Assembly (NCBI GenBank): GCA_020852515.1
Contig: JADZAS010000015.1
Coordinates: forward strand, 124,001 to 188,000
DNA length: 64,000 nucleotides
Reading direction: 5' to 3'
Source of the DNA: Phycisphaerales bacterium
GTDB lineage: Bacteria; Planctomycetota; Phycisphaerae; Phycisphaerales; UBA5793
Every line of letters begins with the position of its first letter. Position 1 is the stretch's first letter. The notes below the pieces were generated by a model. It was not told the origin of the DNA, did no database searches, and saw nothing but the letters and a program-made list of their open reading frames with translations. A program made the position numbers and the translations under genes. This document shows positions 11,270-25,417 of the stretch, one piece after another.

Positions 11270-11276
11270 TGTGCCC

Positions 11277-12392
11277 ATGACCAGCAGCACCATGCCGCCC
11301 AGAGCATCCGCATCCAATCCCGGCGACAAACCCCTCACCTACGCGGACAGCGGGGTCGATATCGCCGCCGGCGACACCATGGTCGGCATGATCCAGTCGC
11401 TCATGCGACGCACCCACGGCCCGCGCGTCATCGACCGCCCGGGCGGCTTTGCCGGCCTCGTGCGCCTCGACTTCAACGAAAAACTCTTCCGCCGCAACTA
11501 CAAAGAGCCCGTCCTCGTCGCCTGCACCGACGGCGTGGGCACCAAGGTCAAACTCGCCAGCCAACTGGGCGTCTACGACACCGTCGGCATCGACTGCGTG
11601 GCCATGTGCGTCAACGACATGATCGTCGAAGGCGCTGAGCCGCTCATGTTCCTCGACTACCTCGCCGTCAACCGCCTCGACCCGCAGGTGGGCACGGCGA
11701 TCGTCAAGGGCGTGGCCGACGGGTGCCGGCTCGCGGGCTGCGCGCTCATCGGCGGCGAGACGGCCGAGATGCCCGACGTCTACAGCGAAGGCGACTTCGA
11801 CATCGCCGGCTTTGCCGTGGGCGTGGTCGAACTCGACCGCGCCATCGACAACTCGCGCGTCGAAGCGGGGGACATCATCATCGGCCTGCCATCATCAGGC
11901 GTGCACAGCAACGGCTTCTCGCTCGTGCGCAAGATCGTCAAGGTCGCGGGGCTCGATCTCGGCAGGATCTATCCCGAACTCGATGCGACGCAGACGCTCG
12001 GCCAGGTGCTGCTCACACCCACGCGCATCTACACGCGATCCATCGTCCGGCTGCTGCGGCGCTACACGGTGAAGAAGGTCGTTTCGGGCATGGCGCACAT
12101 CACCGGCGGGGGCCTGCCGGGCAACGTCTGCCGGGCGCTGCCGGGCGATCTCGATGCGGTGATCGACAGCAAGTCGTGGGAGATGCCGCCCGTGTTCCAC
12201 TTCCTCCAGAAGCACGGCCGCATTGAGCGCGGCGAGATGCTCGACGTCTTCAACACCGGAATCGGCTACGTGCTGATTGTGCGGCCGTCGTTCGCCAACT
12301 CCGTGGTCAAACACCTGACGAAACTGCGCGAAGAACCGATCGTCATCGGCCAGATCGTCAAGGGCGGCAGCGGGGTGGTGCGGGTGGAGTAG
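11277..12392 (+). CDS. purM: Phosphoribosylformylglycinamidine cyclo-ligase PurM
   Basis: PurM (AIR synthetase) closes the imidazole ring of FGAM with ATP, the fifth step of purine synthesis, in the cytoplasm. The 371-residue product shows LTYADSGVDIAAGD, ACTDGVGTKVKLA, CVAMCVNDMIVEGAEPLMFLDYLA, GGETAEMPDVY, LPSSGVHSNGFSLVRK and GMAHITGGGLPGN. A GTG at 11271 is an alternative start. It stands alone, divergent from the hot-dog/ACP genes. Confidence 0.96.
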   Translation: MTSSTMPPRASASNPGDKPLTYADSGVDIAAGDTMVGMIQSLMRRTHGPRVIDRPGGFAGLVRLDFNEKLFRRNYKEPVLVACTDGVGTKVKLASQLGVYDTVGIDCVAMCVNDMIVEGAEPLMFLDYLAVNRLDPQVGTAIVKGVADGCRLAGCALIGGETAEMPDVYSEGDFDIAGFAVGVVELDRAIDNSRVEAGDIIIGLPSSGVHSNGFSLVRKIVKVAGLDLGRIYPELDATQTLGQVLLTPTRIYTRSIVRLLRRYTVKKVVSGMAHITGGGLPGNVCRALPGDLDAVIDSKSWEMPPVFHFLQKHGRIERGEMLDVFNTGIGYVLIVRPSFANSVVKHLTKLREEPIVIGQIVKGGSGVVRVE

Positions 12393-12551: not shown

Positions 12552-14072
12552 CTACGGCCCATCCGCTCCGCGCCGTGTCGTTCCGCGTTCAAATGTGCCG
12601 GGCAGTGGACCACCACCCTGCGGCTGAGTCAGAATGGGCCGCAAATCGGCCGGCACTTCAGGATCGTCGGCCGTGTCATACCAGGTTACAGGAATGTCGC
12701 TGAATTCGATGGGCTGGCCGTACCAAGTCTGGTCTGAGCGCTGCTGAGGAAACATTCGACCGTTGGCGTCGTTGACATCGGCTGTGAACTGAGCGGTTAT
12801 GTACTGCGGCTCGTCCTCGGGGCGAGGATGGATGAACAGCCGCACCTGCATTGACGAGCCGCGCTGGAGGTTCAAAGGCATCTGTCCGCTCCCAGACGGC
12901 ATTCCGGAATGCCGCGTCACGAGTTGCAGTTGAGCCGCGATCGGCACGTCCCGCCAGGTAACGAGCACCACGATGCGCCCGCCGACGAGTTGGCCGCTCG
13001 GCGTACCCATCACCTGTGGCGGCACGCGCAAACCGATCGCCTGCACCTCAATGCTCTCTCGAAGCGCCGCGGTCACTGCTTCATCGGTCACGAGTTCTGT
13101 GGCGCCCTCCGCGGGCGGCAGCACGGTGATTGTCGTCGCCAGCGGCACATCCCATGTCGCTGGCGACGCCACCGTGCGGGGCTTGACCATGGATGACTGG
13201 GTGCGCGGTGCGAGCGTCGCGCTCCAGGTAATGTTCAATTCGCGCTCGCCCGGCTCGGGCAGCACGGCGAATGTTTTGGTCATCAGCGCATTGGTATTCG
13301 CGCGCAGTGTGGTGAACATCGCGCCTTCACCGGGATTGGCGCGAAGTTCGATGCCGCCAAACGACTGATCCACAATCGACAATTGAAGTGTCAGGTCGCC
13401 GCTACCCGCGCGGAGCAGCGTCGGCTGCGGCCCGGCGCGAGCGATCTCCCATCGCCGCACCTTCGGCGCTTCGGCGACCATCTGGATGTCCACCGCATGC
13501 TGCGCGTACTTGAGAATCTGTTCAGGTGAAAGTGAACCATTCTTCCACGCGGCTTCGATTACATCCCCCCAGCCGGCGCGCCATGCGGCACTCTCATCCG
13601 CCTGCAGTTCCAGCCCGTCGGCGGCAAGGGCGACCAGTCGCGCGCTGCTGAGTCCACCGGCGTCGATGCGCTTGACCAGTTCAGCCAGCGCGCCGTCGGC
13701 CGTCTCACCATCCGACGAGTGTGCATTCCGCACGATCCACCAGTCCGGCTTGTATTGCATCCAATCCACCGGGCCCAGCGTTTGGACGATGCTTCGGCTC
13801 AACCAGACGCCGCAGCCGATAACGACCAGCAGGCCGATGGCGGAAAGCGCCCAGCGCCGCCGGCGCTGTCCGATCTCGACGGCGCCAACCGTTTCCAGCG
13901 AGGCGCCGCATTCGGGACAGCGGTTCGCCCCCGGCCAGCGACCCTGAAGGTCAAAGCGGCATGCGCGGCACCACGGGTGGTTATCCAGTCGTCGGCCCCG
14001 CCAGCCGCGCGCGAAAAGCGTCAGGCCGAGCAGCGTCAGGAAAACAAACAGGATGGTCAGGAGATCAAGCAT
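12552..14072 (-). CDS. Tandem zinc-ribbon/two-membrane-segment family, member 7
   Basis: This 506-residue protein is last in a run of seven paralogues. Order: membrane segment (about 4-22); GRRLDNHPWCRACRFDLQGR and RCPECG zinc ribbon with C35, C38, C52, C55; second membrane segment (about 73-92); VDWMQYKPDWWIVR motif; helical stretch (ALAELVKRIDAGGLS); then a beta-rich region with EPGERELNITW and VTDEAV...LRESI; and the C-terminal signature VTWYDTADDPEVPADLR. Basic residues flank the ribbon on both sides, so it is probably cytoplasmic and the large C-terminal domain outside. Function unknown. It lies 137 bases after member 6, the largest gap in the array. Confidence 0.82.
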   Translation of the reverse strand: MLDLLTILFVFLTLLGLTLFARGWRGRRLDNHPWCRACRFDLQGRWPGANRCPECGASLETVGAVEIGQRRRRWALSAIGLLVVIGCGVWLSRSIVQTLGPVDWMQYKPDWWIVRNAHSSDGETADGALAELVKRIDAGGLSSARLVALAADGLELQADESAAWRAGWGDVIEAAWKNGSLSPEQILKYAQHAVDIQMVAEAPKVRRWEIARAGPQPTLLRAGSGDLTLQLSIVDQSFGGIELRANPGEGAMFTTLRANTNALMTKTFAVLPEPGERELNITWSATLAPRTQSSMVKPRTVASPATWDVPLATTITVLPPAEGATELVTDEAVTAALRESIEVQAIGLRVPPQVMGTPSGQLVGGRIVVLVTWRDVPIAAQLQLVTRHSGMPSGSGQMPLNLQRGSSMQVRLFIHPRPEDEPQYITAQFTADVNDANGRMFPQQRSDQTWYGQPIEFSDIPVTWYDTADDPEVPADLRPILTQPQGGGPLPGTFERGTTRRGADGP

Positions 14073-14209
14073 GATTTCGCGCCGGTCGCGAGACCCGTCT
14101 CGATCCTATCGCCGCCGTGCCGCCGGAGCGGCGAAGTGGAGCGATTCCGTCGTTCGCCATTCCTCCGCGAGCGGGTGTCCACTCGAGTGTGCGCGAGAAT
14201 AGCGCCCTG

Positions 14210-15655
14210 TCACATCTCATTTCGCTCGCGCTGCCAGCGTGACTTGTCGCGGATCGCGCGCTCGCGGAGTTCGTCATCGAGGCCGGGCGAATCAACATCA
14301 TCAAACCATTGCACCGGCGCCCGAAGGGTGAACGGGTCGCCGAACCACACCGGCTTGTCGTTGAGGGCGCCGGTGTCTCCGCGGCCGAAGATGTCCGGCG
14401 CCTGGCTCGGAAACACCATGAGATCGAGCGACTCGATCTCCGTGCCGGCGGGGAGCGCGAAGTGAAAATGGGCGCGGCGGCCGAACCCCTCCGCGAGTCC
14501 GGTCTGGTCCATGACCTCATCTCCGACCATGATGTCGATGCCCAGGCCCGGTCGCCACTGCTGCGGCTCCATCGTCACGATTCCCACCACGTCGCCGAGG
14601 CCATCGTGCAGCGCATTGCGCAGCCCGGCGACGTCGATCCGAAGCGCCTCGCGAACGTGCTGGGTGCTCTGCTCGTCGGTCAGGTACGTCACTGCATCAG
14701 GCCCCGCCGGTTCGATCATCAGTGACTCGTCAAGCGTCTCACGCCACGACAGAACGCGCTGTTTGTCGTCGCCGAGTCTGCAATCGATTTGCCAGACGGT
14801 GTGCAGCGTGGCTTCGCCAGGCTGGGCGAGAATGGGGATCGCATACCCCGAGCCGCCGCCGCCATAGCCGCCGCCCCTGGAGAGTCCGAAACTTGTGACG
14901 GACCTCTGCAGCCTGAAGGACTCTTCGGCCAGAGCGACTTCGACCGGCCAGGCTTCGATCCGCATGCGCTCGGTCCGACCGCGAAAGGGCGGCTGAAGGC
15001 GGATCTTGAACGTGAGCAGGCCGCCGCGCCGGATCGGTTGCCTGCGGGAGATGTCCAGTTGGATGGATGCGGCGGTGCGGGCGAACTCCAGCCGCCGCTG
15101 CTCGCTGAGCAAATCATCCATCCAGGCTCGCTCGACCAGCGGCACCCACTGCACCTTGGTCGTCTGCAGTTGAGAGACGAGTGATTCAAAGACGTGGTCG
15201 AGCAGCGCGGCGCGATGATGCGGCGCGAGATCGCCCGCCTCGTCGCGCTCGACCAGTTCCGCCAGCGCCGCTTCGACGCGCTCGCCCTTGGTCGAATGCA
15301 GATCGCGCACCAGCCACGCGGCGGGCTTGTACGAGTTCCAGTCGATCGGCGCGATGCGCTGGTAGCCGGCACGGATGCCGATGGTCATCGCGAGAATCAA
15401 TATGAACACGCCGGCGCCGAACACCACCGGCTGCGCAGCGCGCTGGCCGTGCGCGACGGCGCGTTTTGCAGAGAGATCTGAGCCGCACTCGGGGCACGTC
15501 GAAGCGGGCCACGAGCCGACGAGATCGAAGCGGCACCTGCGGCACCACGGATGGCCGTCGATGCGCCGCCACCGCCGGCCGAGAACCACCGCCCACGCGC
15601 CGAGGAGGGCCAGCGCGCCAACGAGGTGCCAGACGGTGGTGAATGACTGACTCAT
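14210..15655 (-). CDS. Tandem zinc-ribbon/two-membrane-segment family, member 6
   Basis: The 481-residue product starts at MSQSFTTVWH (an in-frame start 12 codons upstream is less likely because the membrane segment then begins late). Zinc ribbon: HPWCRRCRFDLVG and TCPECG with C38, C41, C54, C57; second membrane segment about 73-95; IDWNSYKPAAWLVRDLHSTKG; helical ALAELVERDEAGDL; Gly-rich GGGYGGGGSGYAIPI; then QPGEATLHTVWQI; TDEQSTQHVREALRIDVAG; and the C-terminal APVQWFDDVDSPGLDDELR. It follows member 5 by 58 bases on the same strand. Function unknown. Confidence 0.82.
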   Translation of the reverse strand: MSQSFTTVWHLVGALALLGAWAVVLGRRWRRIDGHPWCRRCRFDLVGSWPASTCPECGSDLSAKRAVAHGQRAAQPVVFGAGVFILILAMTIGIRAGYQRIAPIDWNSYKPAAWLVRDLHSTKGERVEAALAELVERDEAGDLAPHHRAALLDHVFESLVSQLQTTKVQWVPLVERAWMDDLLSEQRRLEFARTAASIQLDISRRQPIRRGGLLTFKIRLQPPFRGRTERMRIEAWPVEVALAEESFRLQRSVTSFGLSRGGGYGGGGSGYAIPILAQPGEATLHTVWQIDCRLGDDKQRVLSWRETLDESLMIEPAGPDAVTYLTDEQSTQHVREALRIDVAGLRNALHDGLGDVVGIVTMEPQQWRPGLGIDIMVGDEVMDQTGLAEGFGRRAHFHFALPAGTEIESLDLMVFPSQAPDIFGRGDTGALNDKPVWFGDPFTLRAPVQWFDDVDSPGLDDELRERAIRDKSRWQRERNEM

Positions 15656-15713
15656 AAGCCGGCGGCGTCCGTTTCTCCCTCTCCTGTGCAAAGGCGCCAG
15701 GCGCCTCTTTGGT

Positions 15714-17147
15714 TCATTGGCTCGGCTCGGTGGGGTCTGGCGTCACCGGCTTCCAGTCGCCTTCGAGGCAGCGCCGGCGAAGGTCCTCGGGCAGATTGGG
15801 ATCATCAATCGAGTCGTACCACGTTACTGCGATCGATCCGGTCGAGAGCGGTGGGCCATACCACAACTGCTGAAGTTGCCAGGCGTCTCCTCCGCGTCCG
15901 ATGGTCGGCGCGATCGACAACTCAACGTGTTCTATTTCGTCGGAGAGGCGGGGGACGACGATCACGCCGCGATACGACTGGCCGATCATGAATCTCATGT
16001 TCGATGCGCGCTGAACCATGGGTCGGGGGCCGGTGATCGCCACTTCGGCGCTGAACGGAAAGACGCTCGTCTGGCCGAGCACTGCCACTTCGGACCGGGC
16101 GCGTCCCTCGCTGAATGGACTGAGCCGAAAGCCGATGGCCTGGAGACTGAAGCATTCAAGAAGTCGCTCATCCGCATCCGGGCCGATGACCAGCGCCGGC
16201 GCATCGGCATCGGGCGGAAGCACTTTGATCGGCGCTGTGAACTCGATGTCCCACGTTGCCGCAGCGCCTGATGCCTTGCCAGGTTGCGCCGTCACGCGCC
16301 ACGTGCTGCGCAGCTCGTATTCGCCGGGCGCCACCGCAATGGGCAGCAGCAGCGAGCGACCCACGCGTCCGGCTCGAGGCGACAAGTTCATCTCCTCGCT
16401 CTCGCTCGGGTCGAATGGAACTTCGACTTCTCCGATCGACAGCGATGAAGGGGAGACGGTGTACATGAGTTCGCGTGCGCCGGCGCCCGTGTCGCGGTAA
16501 TCGAGTCGGACTGTACTCACGTCCCACTGCCGCACCAGGTCCGACGCGGGCGCGAACGCGAACGAGGCGCTGCGCTGGGCGAACGCCAGGCATTGCTCGG
16601 GCGTGAGCGTACCGTCGATCCAGGCGCCCTCGATCAATCCGCCGAGGAAAGGAGTCCAATCCGCCGAGTCGTCCGCCTGCATCTGCAATGCATGTTGCAC
16701 GAGGCGGGTGATGTTGGCCTCGCTCAGTTCGTCCTTCGCGATGCGCGCATTGAGAGCATCGAGCGCGGCGGCGGCCGTCTCTGTGTCGCTCGAATGCACC
16801 TCGCGCATGAGCCACCAGTCGGGTTTGTGATCCGACCAGTTGACGGTCCTGGCGGATCGCCAGAGGCCCACGCCAAGCCAGCCGGCCCAGCCAAGCAGGA
16901 TGAGCGCCCCGAGCACCGCCAGCACCGGCCGACGCGCCCGCTGGCCGAGTTCGACGGCGTCGATTCGTTCGAGATCGACGCCGCATTCCGGGCATTTCGC
17001 CGCACCGGGCCAGAGGCCCTGCAGATCGCGGCGGCACTTGCGGCACCACGGATGGTTATCCACCCGCCTGCCGCGCCACCCGACCGTGAGCAGCCAGCCC
17101 CCCGCCGCGGCCAGGCCGATGAAGAGGATGGTGAGGAAGTCGGGCAT
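15714..17147 (-). CDS. Tandem zinc-ribbon/two-membrane-segment family, member 5
   Basis: The 477-residue product is closest to member 7 in its N-terminus (MPDFLTILFI against MLDLLTILFV). Zinc ribbon HPWCRKCRRDLQGLWP and KCPECG uses C35, C38, C52, C55; a second membrane segment follows at about 74-95; then NWSDHKPDWWLMREVHSS, ALNARIAKDELSEANI, LPIAVAPGEYELRSTWRV, and the C-terminal VTWYDSIDDPNLPEDLRRR. It is 54 bases downstream of member 4. Membrane-anchored, function unknown. Confidence 0.82.
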   Translation of the reverse strand: MPDFLTILFIGLAAAGGWLLTVGWRGRRVDNHPWCRKCRRDLQGLWPGAAKCPECGVDLERIDAVELGQRARRPVLAVLGALILLGWAGWLGVGLWRSARTVNWSDHKPDWWLMREVHSSDTETAAAALDALNARIAKDELSEANITRLVQHALQMQADDSADWTPFLGGLIEGAWIDGTLTPEQCLAFAQRSASFAFAPASDLVRQWDVSTVRLDYRDTGAGARELMYTVSPSSLSIGEVEVPFDPSESEEMNLSPRAGRVGRSLLLPIAVAPGEYELRSTWRVTAQPGKASGAAATWDIEFTAPIKVLPPDADAPALVIGPDADERLLECFSLQAIGFRLSPFSEGRARSEVAVLGQTSVFPFSAEVAITGPRPMVQRASNMRFMIGQSYRGVIVVPRLSDEIEHVELSIAPTIGRGGDAWQLQQLWYGPPLSTGSIAVTWYDSIDDPNLPEDLRRRCLEGDWKPVTPDPTEPSQ

Positions 17148-17201
17148 GGTGTCTGTTCCACGGAAGAGAATGCGCTGGTCGGATCGCCTGAGACCCGCAC
17201 C

Positions 17202-18755
17202 TTAGAACGGTTCCACACGCTGTATCGATTCGAGTTCGTCTTCGCTCAGATCCACCTCTTCGATCGTATCAAACCAGGTGATGGGCACGTCAGGGATGTC
17301 GAAGGGCGGGCCCATCCAGAATGGCTGTGGTATCTGTTGCGGAGGGCCGAAGCCAGGTCCCGTGCCGACGATCAATGATCTGCCCGTTCTGCTGTAGTGG
17401 ACCCTGACGTCGACCGACTTCAACTGGTCATCATCCACGATGAACGGCACCCACCCCGCCGGCAGATCCGCTCCGACTCGGCGCAACTCTTCGCCGCGGC
17501 TGGAGATCTCCACGTCGATTGACCCATTGAACGGAGCGAGAGGACCTTCGGCCTTCAGCCGTTGGTGGGGCCCGCAGTCAAACCTGAAGTAGACGATCGT
17601 CACAGTGTCCTTGCGATGCTGCGTGAGTTGGTATGAACGAAAGCCCAGTGCGCTTGCGGCGAAGGCGCTGCGAAGCACCTCGGTCGCGGCGGCGTCCGTC
17701 TCGATCGGGACCGACCCTTCACGTGGGCGGCTCACAACCACGGCGTCGTGCAACTCGAGAACCTCCGTAACCGCGGTCTCCGGCGGCTCATCTTCAAGCC
17801 GCACGTTGACTTCCCAACGAAGTGACACTTCGTAGCGGCCCGGTGCGACCGCGATTGGAATCCAGAACATCCGCCTCGCTCGCACGGGACTGCGGAATAT
17901 CGAACTGCTCACGACTGAAGATGAAGCGCGCTGCACCGGGAAGTCGGGACATGCCCAGTCGCCGATGGTCGCGCTCAGGCAACGCACGTCAAGAGCCAGC
18001 CGCGATCCCTGGGCGAAGCGCTCGGGGCTCACGATGAACTCGACATCCATGAGGTCATACTTCGCCACGGCGAGCGGCTCACGGCTGCGCCGTCGCGCTT
18101 CGATTTCTCCGTCGGTCTGAGGGCCACCGGAGAAGCTCTGGCTGTATCGCGGGTGTTGCAGAGCCATTGAATATTCCAGACACCGCCGAAGGTAATCCCG
18201 GCGTTCGTCTTCGGTCAGCAGGCCGCGGCCGATGGCCTCCTCAACGAGCGTGCCCCAGAGCGGTTGCCACGGGGCGGCTGCGTCCTCCTGGTGAGCCAGC
18301 CCGCGACGCGCCAGTTCGGTCAGGTCCGCATCGCTGACGCCGCCGCTATCTGCTCGGCGGATCAGTTCCTTGAGGGCCGACTCTGCCACCGTGGTTCGCG
18401 CCGACCCAGCGCGGAACGCCAGCCATGCAACGGGCTTGTGAGCGGTCCAGTTGATGCGATCAAAGCGCTGGACGAGGCGCACACCCAGCGTGATGGCGGT
18501 GAGCGCGAACACTGCGAGGCCCAGCCCGAGCAGGCGCGGCTGAGCCGCGCGACGGCGACAGGCCACTGCTTCGTACGCGCCGAGACCTGATCCGCATTCG
18601 GGGCAGTGCAGCGAATCCACGGCGGCGCCGTCGAGGCTGTAGAGGCAGCGAGCGCACCATTTCCGTCCGGGCGTCCTGCCGCCGCGCATCGCCGCCGCAA
18701 TCAGCAGCCCAGAAGCCGCCGCGCCGCCCAGAATGAACTGCGCCTCGCTGATCAT
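17202..18755 (-). CDS. Tandem zinc-ribbon/two-membrane-segment family, member 4
   Basis: The 517-residue protein retains the ribbon (RKWCARCLYSLDG, HCPECG; C34, C37, C51, C54) but lacks the HPWC histidine-proline pair. The second membrane segment is about 74-92, followed by INWTAHKPVAWLAFR, ALKELIRRADSGGVS, WIPIAVAPGRYEVSLRWEV and the C-terminal VPITWFDTIEEVDLSEDELE, where IDDP is replaced by IEEV. Its ATG overlaps the stop of member 3 by four bases (ATGA), showing tight translational coupling. Function unknown. Confidence 0.82.
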   Translation of the reverse strand: MISEAQFILGGAAASGLLIAAAMRGGRTPGRKWCARCLYSLDGAAVDSLHCPECGSGLGAYEAVACRRRAAQPRLLGLGLAVFALTAITLGVRLVQRFDRINWTAHKPVAWLAFRAGSARTTVAESALKELIRRADSGGVSDADLTELARRGLAHQEDAAAPWQPLWGTLVEEAIGRGLLTEDERRDYLRRCLEYSMALQHPRYSQSFSGGPQTDGEIEARRRSREPLAVAKYDLMDVEFIVSPERFAQGSRLALDVRCLSATIGDWACPDFPVQRASSSVVSSSIFRSPVRARRMFWIPIAVAPGRYEVSLRWEVNVRLEDEPPETAVTEVLELHDAVVVSRPREGSVPIETDAAATEVLRSAFAASALGFRSYQLTQHRKDTVTIVYFRFDCGPHQRLKAEGPLAPFNGSIDVEISSRGEELRRVGADLPAGWVPFIVDDDQLKSVDVRVHYSRTGRSLIVGTGPGFGPPQQIPQPFWMGPPFDIPDVPITWFDTIEEVDLSEDELESIQRVEPF

Positions 18756-20236
18756 CGGTCACTCCAACCTTGCGGATCGGCCCAGTGGCTGCCCCTGCGT
18801 TCGACAACGACGGGCGGCTCAAGCCGGCGGAGAACCGACTCCCAGCGCCGCCTGCGAATCGTCTCGGCGATGCGCGGGTCGTCAATCGAGTCGAACCATT
18901 CCACCGGCTCCGGCTCGATCAGGACGGCCGGGCCGTACCAGATCGCCCGCCGGTCGTGCTTGATCCGAGACGACCCAAAGTCCGGTACGCGCAAAGCGCG
19001 CGATCGCATGATGATGCGGAGAGCCGCATCACGAGGCCGATTGCCGAGCGGAATGCACACGAAGAGCAGCTGACCCTGCGTGGAGCTCTGCACGAGTTCG
19101 GCGCCGAGCCACACCTCGTAGTCCGGGCTGAACTGCATATCGTCGGGTTGAGGCTCGATGACGCCGATAATGACGTCTTCGCCGGTCTCCGGGTGCAGCC
19201 CGCGCACGCCGACCAGATCGACTCGCGTCGCGGTGCGCATGGCCTGCGACGATTCGCCGTCGATGCGGATTTCTCTTGACCGATCGTCCGGCGGCTCAAC
19301 GGTGATCACTTGCGAATGCGTCTCCGTCCAGGCTAAGGCGGTCTCAGGCTGATCGCTGATCTGGAATTGCACTTTCCACTTTGAGTCCAGTGTGTGATCG
19401 CCCGGGGCGACCAGGATCGGAAACTGGATGCGCATGCCGCCCCCTTGCTGCATCCCCGGGGCGATGACTGCCGGGCCATTGGAGTCGTCGATTTCAGTAG
19501 CGACCGGCTCTCCATCGAGAGTAACTTCAAGCGGCTCGGTGTGCACGATGACGGACGATTTCGCCAGGCGCTCGCGCGGCTGCGGACTGAGTGCGAAGCG
19601 CATGAACGTTCCCTGGCGCGGGGCATCGCGACTTGGAATGGAACCTATCAGTCCGGTGACGCGCTTGGCCAGTGCCAGAGAGTGCTCCCGGCTGAGCCGG
19701 CCCGCGAGCCACTCTGGTTCGACCAGCGGAAACCATCGAGTCGCCGTCTCATGATCGCTGGGCATCACTCGATCAAGCAGCAGACCGACCAGTTCGCTGC
19801 GCCGATCATTCGAGAGCGACCCTGCCTGCTCGCGACGAAGCAGCTCATTGATAGCCGCAAGCGAAGTGGCGATGTCGTCAGATTCTGCCTGGCGAAACAA
19901 CAGAAACTGTGGCTTGTGCGCCGGCCAGTCCACCGCATTAAACCAGTCAATGCCGCGAGCCAGCACGACCGACAGCGCCGCCCAGAGCAGAAGCGAACCC
20001 AGCGCGATCAGCCCCGGTCGCCGTCTTCGCCTTCCGACTCCAACCGCGACAACTGCCGAAACGTCGCCGCCGCAGCACCCGCACTTCGCCTCGGCGAGGC
20101 GTTCCGCAGGGAGAATGCTCCGACACGCCCGGCACCACCGGTCGCCGAGGCGTTGCCGCGTGCGCCGGCCGTGAACGATGAGCAGAGCGCCGACGGCCGC
20201 AAGCGAAAAGCAGAGGTTAATCACAGAAGCAAACAT
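18752..20236 (-). CDS. Tandem zinc-ribbon/two-membrane-segment family, member 3
   Basis: The 494-residue protein has a divergent ribbon: DRWCRACRSILP then KCGCCGGD, so C35, C38, C52, C55 remain but an extra Cys54 appears and PE is lost. The second membrane segment is about 74-93. Then come VDWPAHKPQFLLFRQAES, AINELLRREQAGSLS, FPILVAPGDHTLDSKWKV, DGESSQAMRTATRVDLVGVR and the C-terminal PVEWFDSIDDPRIAETIRR. It lies six bases after member 2 and overlaps member 4 by four bases. Function unknown. Confidence 0.82.
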   Translation of the reverse strand: MFASVINLCFSLAAVGALLIVHGRRTRQRLGDRWCRACRSILPAERLAEAKCGCCGGDVSAVVAVGVGRRRRRPGLIALGSLLLWAALSVVLARGIDWFNAVDWPAHKPQFLLFRQAESDDIATSLAAINELLRREQAGSLSNDRRSELVGLLLDRVMPSDHETATRWFPLVEPEWLAGRLSREHSLALAKRVTGLIGSIPSRDAPRQGTFMRFALSPQPRERLAKSSVIVHTEPLEVTLDGEPVATEIDDSNGPAVIAPGMQQGGGMRIQFPILVAPGDHTLDSKWKVQFQISDQPETALAWTETHSQVITVEPPDDRSREIRIDGESSQAMRTATRVDLVGVRGLHPETGEDVIIGVIEPQPDDMQFSPDYEVWLGAELVQSSTQGQLLFVCIPLGNRPRDAALRIIMRSRALRVPDFGSSRIKHDRRAIWYGPAVLIEPEPVEWFDSIDDPRIAETIRRRRWESVLRRLEPPVVVERRGSHWADPQGWSDR

Positions 20237-20242
20237 GCGCGG

Positions 20243-21703
20243 TCAGCGACCTCCTGCTGCCTTTGGCTCCGGCCGAGTGCGCGGGACGCCGAGGTTAGCG
20301 CGGATCGCGTCCGCGACGAGCGGTGTGTCGCGGTCCACCCACTGCACCGGAAAATCGCACCAGCGGATCTCGCCGCACCACATGCGGATCGGCGAGACCT
20401 TCGGCCCGGACATCTCCGGATAATCGAGACAGCCGGTGGCCAGCACGATGTCCACGCTGGGAATCATCAAGCCGGCAGCGCCGTAGTAGAAGCCCGTCCC
20501 GCCGCGATACGGAGTCTCAGATGTATCGCGTACGTGGGTCTTGACGTGGGTCGAATGGACCACGCGTCCATCGGGAGATTCCAATCGGACAGCTGCATCA
20601 ACGGCAACCGGGAGATTGTCCAGCGAGAGATGCATGTACATCGTCGGAGTCTCCCGGCCGTGGCCGCGCGCTGCATACAGCTCGATCGACGTCGCCTCCA
20701 CGATCGCCGCCCGCGTCTGGCTGTCTGAGAGCAACACGAGCGGCGCCACGGTGGGATTCGCGGCGGGCTCGGTGAAGGTGCAGCGCTGCGAATACGTCAG
20801 CCGGCCCGGCGGATTGCTGGACGACCTGAACTCGTCGGCGGTGTGCGTCGCCAGCGTCCACTGCACCGTCGCCTCGACGCAATGCGGCCGGTGCGGCGAG
20901 AAGTCGATCGCGGGCGAGAGCAGATGAGGCCGCTGGCTATCGAGGCTTTCGACGATGGTTCGCTTGGGCGGCAGTTCGATGCTCACGCCGTCAACGCTCA
21001 ACTCGACGAGTTCGCAGACGTAAAAGCCGCTGGAGAAACGCCGCGCCGGCACGACGCGGGCGCCCACGACCCCGGCCGGCTGACCATCCAGCGTGGCAGC
21101 TTCCAGGTACACCTCCGGCTGAAACGCCTTCACCGCATATTGCCACGCCGTCGCGTCATCCAGATAACCTCCGGCCCAGGCGCCGGTCACGAAACGATCC
21201 CAATGGCGCGAAAGTTCAGCCGGCGGCGAATCGAAGAGCGAAGTGGCTGTGGCAACGAGACCGTCGATGCGCCGCTGGCTCAGTTCCTTGTCACCAAGGC
21301 GAACCACCAGTTCGCGCAGCGCCGCATCAGACTTGGCCATATCAGCCGACTGCGCTTCGATCGCCAGCCACCATGCCGGCTTGTAGTGGTTCCAATCGAC
21401 CTTGGACAATGTGCCGCTGGCGCTCAGCGCGACCCAGGCGCTGCAGGCCAGCAGCAGCACAGCGCCCAGCGCCGCGATGATCGGCCGGCGCCGGCGCAGG
21501 CCGCGAACCACCGCGCGCGGGCCAGCCAGGTCGGCCCCGCACTCCGGGCAGCGCGCTGCCGCCGCGCCGAGCCCGAAAAGATCGAACCGGCAGCGCCGAC
21601 AGTGCGGGTGATCATCCACGCGCCTGCCGCGCAGTCCGAGCAGCAGTGCAGCGAGCCCGGCGAAGCCGAGCAGGATCAGGAGGATGGTGGTTGGAGCGTT
21701 CAT
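20243..21703 (-). CDS. Tandem zinc-ribbon/two-membrane-segment family, member 2
   Basis: The 486-residue protein keeps a canonical ribbon (GRRVDDHPHCRRCRFDLFG, RCPECGADL; C35, C38, C52, C55) and the second membrane segment (about 74-92), followed by VDWNHYKPAWWLAIEAQS. The extracytoplasmic part is the most divergent of the seven: APG-Y is replaced by SPHRPHCVEATVQW, and the C-terminal motif is FPVQWVDRDTPLVADAIR without the usual aromatic-Asp-Ser. It lies 21 bases after member 1. Function unknown. Confidence 0.8.
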   Translation of the reverse strand: MNAPTTILLILLGFAGLAALLLGLRGRRVDDHPHCRRCRFDLFGLGAAAARCPECGADLAGPRAVVRGLRRRRPIIAALGAVLLLACSAWVALSASGTLSKVDWNHYKPAWWLAIEAQSADMAKSDAALRELVVRLGDKELSQRRIDGLVATATSLFDSPPAELSRHWDRFVTGAWAGGYLDDATAWQYAVKAFQPEVYLEAATLDGQPAGVVGARVVPARRFSSGFYVCELVELSVDGVSIELPPKRTIVESLDSQRPHLLSPAIDFSPHRPHCVEATVQWTLATHTADEFRSSSNPPGRLTYSQRCTFTEPAANPTVAPLVLLSDSQTRAAIVEATSIELYAARGHGRETPTMYMHLSLDNLPVAVDAAVRLESPDGRVVHSTHVKTHVRDTSETPYRGGTGFYYGAAGLMIPSVDIVLATGCLDYPEMSGPKVSPIRMWCGEIRWCDFPVQWVDRDTPLVADAIRANLGVPRTRPEPKAAGGR

Positions 21704-21724
21704 GGCAAGGAGTCAGGTTCGCGG

Positions 21725-23290
21725 CTAGCGGTCCGGCCCGGTGGATCTGTCCATGCGTTCCCACATTTCGACGAAGCTTTGAATCATCTCGCGATGCTCA
21801 GGGGGGCAGGCCGGATCGTCGATCGAGTCGTACCACTGCACGTCATCGATGTGCAGGGTGAATTCAGGGCCCATCCACCTGGGCTTGGGCTTGCGGGTCT
21901 TGCGGTCGAGAACGCCGGAGGAGCGGCTGTTCGTGCTGGGACGCACGACCAGGTCGAGTGAGGTGAGATCCGGTGCGCTGACGTGGTTGAAGGTCGATGA
22001 GTTGGGAAGGCTGACCGACATCGTGTCAACGTACACGCCTCCGGCAAACAAACTGATGTCCAGATTAGCATTCAGGGGGCAGTCCGCACCTGCATCTCCG
22101 AATCCGAACCAGCCGCCGCCCCCACTCGAAACCGAGCAGATCATCCCCGGCGACGTAACCTGCGGCTCAAGGTCCGTCGGCAGGCGCCGGAAGCCGACCA
22201 ACGTGATGCGCGCCGCTTCGCGCACGAGTTGTGACGATTCATCGTCGATCACAATCTCCTCGGCATCAGGCGCAGCGGGTGCCACGATCACCGGCGCGCT
22301 CAGTTCCAGATCCAGCGTGCGCAGAGGGGCGCTGTCGGTCGCATGCGCGAAAATCTCGACATGGACGCTCGCGCGAACTTCGTATTCGCCTGGCGGGACG
22401 ACCACAGGGATCAATGGCGCGATCGATTCGGCGTAGCCGTAACCCGAGCCGAGCGTGATCGAGTTCGGATGCTCCGGATCGCGATAGAGGGAGTCAGGCA
22501 GCGCCACATCGCCGAGCGCCACGCTTGATACCTCGCACTTGCCTTCGTAATACCGGCGCTCCGATGCGACCCGATTCCACTGAGCGATCAGATTCAATTC
22601 GATCGAGTCCCACTGGCTGGATCTGAAAGTCGCCGTCGGCGCAGCGCCCGCTCCGGGAGAACTTCCACGGAGGGGCCATCGTTCTTGCGTTGAGAAGCGT
22701 CCAGGCGAGAGCATGAGTTCAAACGTGAGCGCGTTGTCGAAGTAGGCGCCGATCTGCTCAGCGCTGAGCAGTTCGCGATCGATCGCTGCATCGATCATCG
22801 AGCCCCAGAGCGGCTCCCATTCGATGCTCTCGTCGCTCTGGTGTGCAAGGCCCATCTCCGCCAGTTGGAGCATCTCGTCAGCGCTGACTTCGTCATGCAC
22901 GGTGCGGCGCAGCAACTCCTCCAGCGCCGATCGGCGAGTCTCTGGCGCATCGGCGCGGACCGAGCGCATCAGCCACCACATCGGTTTATGCTGCTCCCAT
23001 TTGACCGCCCGCGCCCAGCCCCATGTCTCGCCGGCAGCCAGCACCGCACAAGCCACCAGCAAGAGCGCACCGAGGGCCATGAGCGGCCGCCGCTTGCGCC
23101 AGTGCCCGCGTCGCGTGGCCCGCCGCGGCGTCAGATCGGCGCCGCACTCGGCGCAGCGCGTCGAATCGGATCCGAACAGGTCGTGGCCGCACTTGACGCA
23201 CCACGGGTGATCGTCGAGGCGTCGGCCAAACCAGCCGGCCGCCACGAGCAGTCCGCCGGCGCCGAAGAGAAGAAACATCACCGCCGCCAT
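21725..23290 (-). CDS. Tandem zinc-ribbon/two-membrane-segment family, member 1
   Basis: This is the promoter-proximal gene of the array; 521 residues from ATG 23290, chosen because GGAGGT lies nine bases upstream and the membrane segment then starts at residue 1 as in the paralogues. The other possible ATG is 23311. Ribbon: FGRRLDDHPWCVKCGHDLFG and RCAECG (C31, C34, C46, C49); second membrane segment about 68-88; VKWEQHKPMWWLMRSVRA; ALEELLRRTVHDEVS; PVVVPPGEYEVRASVHV; DDESSQLVREAARITLVGFR; and C-terminal DVQWYDSIDDPACPPEHRE. A Gly/Phe-rich insert (SSGGGGWFGFGDAG) sits late in the protein. Function unknown. Confidence 0.82.
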   Translation of the reverse strand: MAAVMFLLFGAGGLLVAAGWFGRRLDDHPWCVKCGHDLFGSDSTRCAECGADLTPRRATRRGHWRKRRPLMALGALLLVACAVLAAGETWGWARAVKWEQHKPMWWLMRSVRADAPETRRSALEELLRRTVHDEVSADEMLQLAEMGLAHQSDESIEWEPLWGSMIDAAIDRELLSAEQIGAYFDNALTFELMLSPGRFSTQERWPLRGSSPGAGAAPTATFRSSQWDSIELNLIAQWNRVASERRYYEGKCEVSSVALGDVALPDSLYRDPEHPNSITLGSGYGYAESIAPLIPVVVPPGEYEVRASVHVEIFAHATDSAPLRTLDLELSAPVIVAPAAPDAEEIVIDDESSQLVREAARITLVGFRRLPTDLEPQVTSPGMICSVSSGGGGWFGFGDAGADCPLNANLDISLFAGGVYVDTMSVSLPNSSTFNHVSAPDLTSLDLVVRPSTNSRSSGVLDRKTRKPKPRWMGPEFTLHIDDVQWYDSIDDPACPPEHREMIQSFVEMWERMDRSTGPDR

Positions 23291-23311
23291 CGCTCCGCGA
23301 CCTCCGCTCAT

Positions 23312-23629: not shown

Positions 23630-25417
23630 ATGCACTTTCTGACTCCCAAGTGGGTCGTCTGCCTCCGCGAGGGCTACACCGCGCACAAGTTCGCCGGCGA
23701 CCTCCTCGCCGGCATTACCGTCGGCGTGATCGCGCTGCCGCTGGCGATGGCCTTTGGCATCAGCAGCATTCCCGAAGACGTCGCCGCCGAGCTCGCCGCG
23801 ACGCACCCCTGGCTCACGCCGCCGGCGATGGGCCTGTTCACCGCCGTCGTCGCCGGGTTTCTCATGTCTTTCTTCGGCGGGTCGCGCGTGCTCATCGGCG
23901 GCCCGACGGGCGCATTCATCGTCATCATCTATGGCATCGCAGCGCGCCACGGCTATGAGGGCCTGGCCACCGCCACGCTCATGGCCGCCGTCATCCTTAT
24001 CCTCATGGGGCTGTTTCGCTTCGGCTCGATGATTAAGTTCATCCCATACCCGGTCACCACCGGCTTCACCACCGGCATTGCCGTAATCATCGCCTCGCAG
24101 CAGATCAAGGAGTTTCTCGGCGTGGCGCCGCACGACGCCGCGGGCCAGCCGCTGCCGCTGCCGCCTGAGTTCGTGCACAAACTGCAGGTCATCGCCGCGT
24201 CGATCGACACCATCGACTGGCCCACGGTGGCGGTCTCGCTGGGCTCGATGGCGGTGCTCATCATCATGCGCCGCTTGTGGCCGCGCGTGCCCGGCGCCAT
24301 CGTCGCCGTCATCCTCGCGTCGGTCGTCGTGCACTTTGCGGGTTTGGACAAGACCCTCGGCGGCAGCGTGGAGACGATCGGCTCGCGCTTTACGCAGGGC
24401 ATCCCCAAGATGCTGCCCATGCCGCATTTGCCGAGTTTCAACTGGTCGATGGTGCGCGACCTCATTCCCGACGCCACGACCATCGCCGTGCTCGCGGGCA
24501 TCGAGTCGCTGCTCGCCGCCGTCGTCGCCGACGGCATGCTGGGCACGCGGCACAAGTCCGACTGCGAACTCGTCGCCCAGGGGCTGGCGAACATCGGCTC
24601 GGTGCTCTTCTTTGGCATCCCGGCCACCGGCGCCATCGCCCGCACCGCGGCGAACGTCAAATCAGGCGGCCGCACGCCGTTTGCCGGCATGATCCACGCC
24701 GCCACGCTGCTGGCGTTCATGCTCTTTCTCGCGCCGCTGGCCAAGCTCATTCCCCTGCCCACGCTTGCGGCGGTGCTCATCATGGTCGCGTGGAACATGA
24801 GCGAACTCGACCACTTCCGCTTCATCCTCCGCGCGCCGCGCAGCGACATCCTCGTGCTGCTCACGACCTTCGGCCTGACCGTCTTTGCCGATCTGACGAT
24901 CGCCGTGGGCGTGGGCATGGTGCTCGCCAGCATGCTCTTCATGAAGCGCATGAGCACCGTCTCGAACGTGAGCGAGATCACCGATGAGATGCTCGCCAAC
25001 CACATCGACGAGCGCGAACTGGCCGACGAGCGCGACCCGATGGCGCTGGCCAACCGCACCATTCCGTACGATGTCGAGGTCTTCGAGATCGACGGCCCGT
25101 TCTTCTTTGGCGTGGCGGACCGGCTCAAGGACACGCTCAGAGGCCTCGAGCCGCCGCCGCGGGCTTTTATCCTCCGCATGCGCCGCGTCCCGGCCATCGA
25201 CGCGACGGGCCTGCACGCACTCGAAGAGTTCTACCACAAATGCCACCGCCAGGGCACGACGCTGATCGTCTCGGGCATTCGCACGCAGCCTCGCGACGTG
25301 ATGGCCAAAGCCGGCCTGGATCGCGTCATCGGCTCTGACAACATCGTCGCGGATCTCGACGCCGCGCTGGCCAGGGCGCAGCAAATCCCGCCGCGCGCTG
25401 CACACGGTGCGTCTTAG
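23630..25417 (+). CDS. SulP/SLC26 family anion transporter with STAS domain
   Basis: SulP proteins move sulfate, bicarbonate or other anions across the inner membrane. The 595-residue product has the conserved LLAGITVGVIALPLAMAFGI in the first membrane region, GGPTGAFIVIIYGI, about 10-12 membrane segments up to residue 440, and a C-terminal STAS domain (about 475-585) with FFFGVADRLKDTL and VPAIDATGLHALEEF. Length fits the family. Substrate cannot be read from sequence; no sulfate-assimilation or carbonic-anhydrase gene is adjacent. No Shine-Dalgarno sequence is obvious. Confidence 0.92.
   Translation: MHFLTPKWVVCLREGYTAHKFAGDLLAGITVGVIALPLAMAFGISSIPEDVAAELAATHPWLTPPAMGLFTAVVAGFLMSFFGGSRVLIGGPTGAFIVIIYGIAARHGYEGLATATLMAAVILILMGLFRFGSMIKFIPYPVTTGFTTGIAVIIASQQIKEFLGVAPHDAAGQPLPLPPEFVHKLQVIAASIDTIDWPTVAVSLGSMAVLIIMRRLWPRVPGAIVAVILASVVVHFAGLDKTLGGSVETIGSRFTQGIPKMLPMPHLPSFNWSMVRDLIPDATTIAVLAGIESLLAAVVADGMLGTRHKSDCELVAQGLANIGSVLFFGIPATGAIARTAANVKSGGRTPFAGMIHAATLLAFMLFLAPLAKLIPLPTLAAVLIMVAWNMSELDHFRFILRAPRSDILVLLTTFGLTVFADLTIAVGVGMVLASMLFMKRMSTVSNVSEITDEMLANHIDERELADERDPMALANRTIPYDVEVFEIDGPFFFGVADRLKDTLRGLEPPPRAFILRMRRVPAIDATGLHALEEFYHKCHRQGTTLIVSGIRTQPRDVMAKAGLDRVIGSDNIVADLDAALARAQQIPPRAAHGAS

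Follow-up and report, generated by a model that had tools for sequence, protein, structure and literature searches.

What does a row of seven similar, unannotated genes encode in a Phycisphaerales bacterium, and what might their products do for the cell? The array occupies positions 12552-23290 of the window, the 64,000-nucleotide stretch of contig JADZAS010000015.1 that was analyzed, and appears in its ORF listing as seven minus-strand reading frames in one row: g1 (21725..23290, 521 aa), g2 (20243..21703, 486 aa), g3 (18752..20236, 494 aa), g4 (17202..18755, 517 aa, overlapping g3 by 4 bases), g5 (15714..17147, 477 aa), g6 (14210..15691, 493 aa from a TTG start, or 481 aa with the ATG at 15655) and g7 (12552..14072, 506 aa), the last gene and the closest to purM. 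All seven frames are intact, and from g1 to g7 they are spaced by 21, 6, -4, 54, 22 and 137 bases. These positions bear out the first-pass annotation, which had described seven consecutive same-strand genes with gaps of -4 to 137 bases; its length range of 477-521 residues also stands overall, with g1, whose longest ORF starts at 23311, fitting only if the later ATG at 23290 is used. A convergent plus-strand gene at 11271..12392, which we take from its sequence to be purM, adjoins a family copy or array in four other genomes (BLASTP identity at the syntenic site 97% in G004, 95% in G001, 89% in G003 and 70% in G005). On the other side, a divergent plus-strand sulP-type permease with a STAS domain (23630..25417; PF00916, E 6e-81, and PF01740) is kept in G004, G001 and G002. 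The seven genes probably form an operon. Counts of sigma-70 promoter-like sites (0 found, 1.4 expected) and terminator-like sites (4 found, 6.0 expected) at the array argue neither for nor against a single transcript.

The seven proteins are paralogues. BLASTP detects each of the 21 pairwise relationships at E 2e-14 or better, with 24-43% identity over the aligned part, which indicates homology rather than chance. The earlier description of colinear paralogues is confirmed by these matches and by an end-to-end alignment with 23 invariant columns, four of which are the ribbon cysteines. A profile built from the seven proteins and run against the whole genome (G000, 4.72 Mb) recovered all seven at E <= 1e-146 (g1 at 1.2e-178) and no other full-length match; about 80 far weaker matches, mostly N-terminal, lie in the rest of the genome. 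A genome-contig scan with a single array protein as query gave four loci. Of the seven, g5 lies nearest the family consensus. The motifs said to be shared by all copies held up in part. All seven carry CxxC...CxxC and W-x-x-[YH]-K-P, and the former is invariant across all 17 aligned family proteins, identifying it by sequence as a C4 zinc ribbon. The C-terminal motifs are looser, occurring in most but not all copies: g2 has WVD in place of W[YF]D at its end and no PIxVAPG segment, the strict string APGxYx[LV] is found in g4 and g5 only, and [DE]S-x4-R is clear at the expected place in g1 and g3 only.

No described family accounts for these proteins. Searches of Pfam and NCBIfam with the seven array proteins, and of Pfam and PADLOC with 17 family members, returned nothing above the (for the former, curated) cut-offs, and no Pfam enzyme domain was matched in either set. 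The best sub-threshold matches were zinc ribbons (for example L37e, E 0.0026, 18.2 of 27.6 bits). Consistent with this, a PDB sequence search with the profile yielded matches at the ribbon only, to zinc fingers and ribosomal L37, bar a methyltransferase at E 0.5, a weak chance match. A role in anti-phage defense was considered and dropped, as PADLOC assigned the 17 members to 0 families. A literature search for the ribbon in Planctomycetes or Phycisphaerae found nothing relevant. The original claim that no described family has this layout therefore survives in Pfam, NCBIfam and PADLOC, where a match to a characterized family would have contradicted it.

What architecture do the proteins share? 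AlphaFold models were made from an input of 17 sequences. Those of g5 (m50425c62b108; pLDDT 82, pTM 0.64) and g3 (m4ab905635500; pLDDT 78, pTM 0.62) have the same order of parts: a transmembrane (TM) helix, the ribbon, a second TM helix, a helical domain of about 95 residues (~104-194) and two beta-sandwiches (~194-314 and ~333-448). The sandwiches are modeled as two successive Ig-like domains in g5, with the matched parts at residues ~194-310 and ~333-444, and the layout is the same in g3. Since these two divergent members share a predicted fold order, the possibility that the seven C-terminal domains are unrelated folds, which would have undone the family, is not borne out. TM helices are predicted on both sides of the ribbon in all seven proteins, and lysine and arginine crowd the ribbon side of both helices in all seven; twelve further TM-ribbon-TM proteins from this genome show the same pattern. 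The first-pass annotation had placed the ribbon in the cytoplasm from its basic flanks, in keeping with the positive-inside rule; by that rule the ribbon would be cytosolic and about 380 residues would be extracytoplasmic, in the periplasm. The architecture is well supported, and function can be proposed more tentatively.

Structural matches cover the sandwiches and not the helical domain, and they are to Ig-like or FN3-like folds, including transglutaminase barrels, RbmA and pilus chaperones. The first sandwich matches transglutaminase beta-barrels with Z 8.0-8.5 (rmsd 2.8-4.0 over about 104-113 residues). With Z at most 8.8, such matches identify a common fold and no function; they are middling, and an Ig-like fold in these models is a generic binding or structural one. 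RbmA, a biofilm scaffold protein of Vibrio cholerae, resembles the g5 model in having two tandem Ig/FN3-like domains and gave the best Foldseek matches to the sandwich pair (E 6e-7). Identity is only 10-12%, however, and the placement of the domains differs (low TM-score). To our knowledge RbmA has neither a TM helix nor a ribbon. The nearest described layout is that of TcaA of Staphylococcus aureus, a membrane-bound, mostly extracellular protein with an intracellular zinc finger that affects wall teichoic acid and peptidoglycan (PMC10328498) and is described as zinc ribbon domain-containing (PMC10611510). TcaA has one predicted membrane span, whereas the array proteins have a TM helix before and after the ribbon. 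The ectodomains of the array proteins matched no Pfam family, so the resemblance can be judged by layout only and would be a likeness rather than kinship or membership.

How widespread is the family, and how did seven copies come to stand together? A profile of the helical domain, with at most 20 candidates scored per genome, matched 78 of 251 Phycisphaerales genomes, with one or two matches in 58 of the 78 and a maximum of 13. Among 392 genomes drawn from the phylum, none outside the order matched. In fetched loci read by eye, a CxxC...CxxC ribbon lies upstream in 40 of 51 helical-domain ORFs; eight of the remaining 11 are cut by the locus end and three carry a CxxxxC variant. The usual complement of a positive genome is one or two copies. 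This is a real, undescribed family restricted, in the genomes sampled, to the order Phycisphaerales, with repeated tandem expansion.

The purM locus records one such expansion. In the source genome and its relatives within one family, the locus holds 1, 1, 3, 6 and 7 copies, collinear where there are several, which shows tandem growth. Between sulP and purM, G004 has six collinear orthologues (of g1, g2, g3, g4, g5 and g7; 79-91% identity, with 81% for g1 and 84% for g2), and G001 has three copies related to g2, g5 and g6 (55% for g2). Beside purM, G003 has a single copy, and so does G005, of another genus, where the copy is diverged. In a phylogenetic tree, the G004 orthologues pair with the array genes with full support, and the arrays of G046 (taken without its first, long-branched gene), G049 and G030 (both three-gene arrays) form their own groups with varying support. 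The G046 (eight genes, L063/L064) and G049 (L065) arrays lie at a different locus, between an amidase and a metallo-beta-lactamase-like gene. Tandem growth therefore took place more than once. The first-pass annotation had seen an old array held together rather than a recent duplication. That it is not recent agrees with the conserved order and identity in the sister genome G004; that it is a fixed old unit does not agree with one to seven copies within one family and separate expansions elsewhere. We sought a shared neighbor gene across families and found none. The flanks differ, purM and sulfate permease here and amidase and metallo-beta-lactamase-like genes in the f2 arrays, and give no guilt by association. 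The G046 array locus also contains a citrate/sulfate-type transporter, as the array in the window likewise has a sulfate permease. G004 probably lost g6: its array is collinear apart from that gene, and a relative of g6 is in G001. At locus L082 (WYBR01000043.1), titled Vicinamibacteraceae, a purM 89% identical to that of the window accompanies a g5-like family gene; these sequences make it probable that the MAG is misnamed.

The seven proteins could be subunits of one obligate heteromeric complex, a reading that their single strand, tight spacing and gene order kept in the sister genome would fit. We consider it highly improbable, since same-genus relatives have three copies or one at the purM locus, so the full set is not required in general; copies elsewhere in the genomes of those relatives could partly substitute.

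Relative to G004, dN/dS is 0.18-0.30 for the six genes with an orthologue there (g1-g5 and g7; g6, which has none, was left out), and these six are under purifying selection. The corresponding values for the flanking genes are 0.05 for purM and 0.07 for sulP, about 2.5 to 6 times lower. This difference, together with the loss of copies in relatives, could reflect a near-neutral build-up of duplicates with little distinct function, but that explanation is very improbable given seven intact frames and dN/dS far below 1 in six genes. Selection is uneven along the proteins. Four genes, g1, g2, g5 and g7, have their strongest or nearly strongest constraint in the ribbon (dN/dS 0.04-0.08) and a less constrained first Ig domain (0.27-0.40). 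The genes g3 and g4 depart from this pattern, and the g4 ribbon, the least constrained of the array (0.59), is no tighter than the rest of its protein.

The ribbon is not specific to the array family. A 52-position ribbon profile matched 132 sites in G000 at E <= 0.01. With the cut-off at E <= 1e-5, three congeners gave 105, 98 and 56 matching sites. Seven genomes from other genera, of which one belongs to the same family and six to others, gave 19-101 each; three genomes of family f5, which is also in this order, gave none. Outside the order, four sampled genomes of the phylum had one match each. Among 89 sampled ribbon ORFs of G000, 87 have a predicted TM helix, although single TM calls are rough because they come from a plain hydropathy window. 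By layout, 47 of these 87 carry the ribbon after the last TM helix, 19 are TM-ribbon-TM, 19 have the ribbon before one to six TM helices and two have it in between. A Pfam scan of 70 ribbon proteins found HEAT repeats in three (E down to 2e-27) and scattered other domains in a few; the three are TM-ribbon-TM proteins in which HEAT repeats replace the array-type ectodomain. The C-terminal parts of the TM-ribbon-TM proteins L009, L010, L012 and L015 look beta-propeller-like by eye, and no beta-propeller family was matched in the scan of 70. Ribbon sites are clustered, with 60 of 125 having another within 2 kb, compared to 12 by chance. A second tandem array (G000:C5:170000-186000, L077, 942-7934) has nine ribbon ORFs in succession, each about 220-330 aa long; two overlap, so the gene count may be eight. 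Most consist of a TM helix, an ectodomain, a TM helix and, at the C-terminus, a ribbon of the type CPACNYDLRATTTGVCPECG. The roughly 130 copies are mostly on unrelated membrane proteins. The seven-gene array is less exceptional than it was first held to be, and the genome-wide spread of the ribbon is more surprising.

That the ribbon also occurs on well over 100 further membrane proteins suggests a shared role. One interpretation is that it is a lineage-specific docking or sorting tag, read by a single cytosolic system on more than 100 unrelated membrane proteins, with the array as the largest TM-ribbon-TM group here. The number of copies, their N-terminal, C-terminal or internal position on proteins that nearly all have a TM helix, and the range from 98-105 copies in two congeners to none in the f5 genomes would all be expected of such a tag. 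As far as the cited description goes, PEP-CTERM type tags offer a parallel, being short homologous domains on many otherwise unrelated proteins per genome that are read as the sign of a sorting system (PMC1569441). The ribbon similarly recurs on many unrelated proteins of one genome but, unlike the tags so described, has no known processing enzyme or co-occurring partner and is not always C-terminal. We regard the tag interpretation as quite unlikely: no partner gene has been identified so far, a stable mini-domain beside the membrane could spread as a plain anchor, and the spread could reflect lineage-specific duplication only.

Alternatively, the proteins may signal across the membrane, with ectodomains that sense the state of the envelope and a ribbon that recruits a cytosolic effector or regulator, like membrane-bound anti-sigma factors. 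A conserved cytosolic ribbon beneath divergent ectodomains, and one anchor carrying different ectodomains, would suit this role. It is nonetheless unlikely. ZAS proteins have an H-x3-C-x2-C motif, which is absent from all seven array proteins, and an adjacent ECF sigma gene, whereas in three genomes the array lies between the purM-like gene and the sulfate permease. Neither an ECF sigma nor a kinase gene lies beside the array or in the scanned flanks of relatives, and the cytosolic part spans just some 50 residues.

The reading we favor, and to which we give an even chance of being right, is that the array genes encode paralogous double-pass inner-membrane proteins, each with a TM helix, a C4 ribbon between basic stretches, a second TM helix, a helical domain and two Ig-like sandwiches. 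The fast-evolving Ig-like ectodomains would bind envelope components or extracellular ligands, or serve as a scaffold for them, rather than act as enzymes, and the paralogues may differ in binding partner. The ribbon would serve as a stable cytosolic anchor or docking knob. At the purM locus, within this one family of Phycisphaerales, the array expanded through tandem duplication.

None of the searched libraries describes the family, and experiments on the order that hosts it are few. Should the shared ribbon have a single partner, this would give a first clue to the function of more than 100 unannotated membrane proteins per genome and make the organization of the envelope in Phycisphaerales open to testing.
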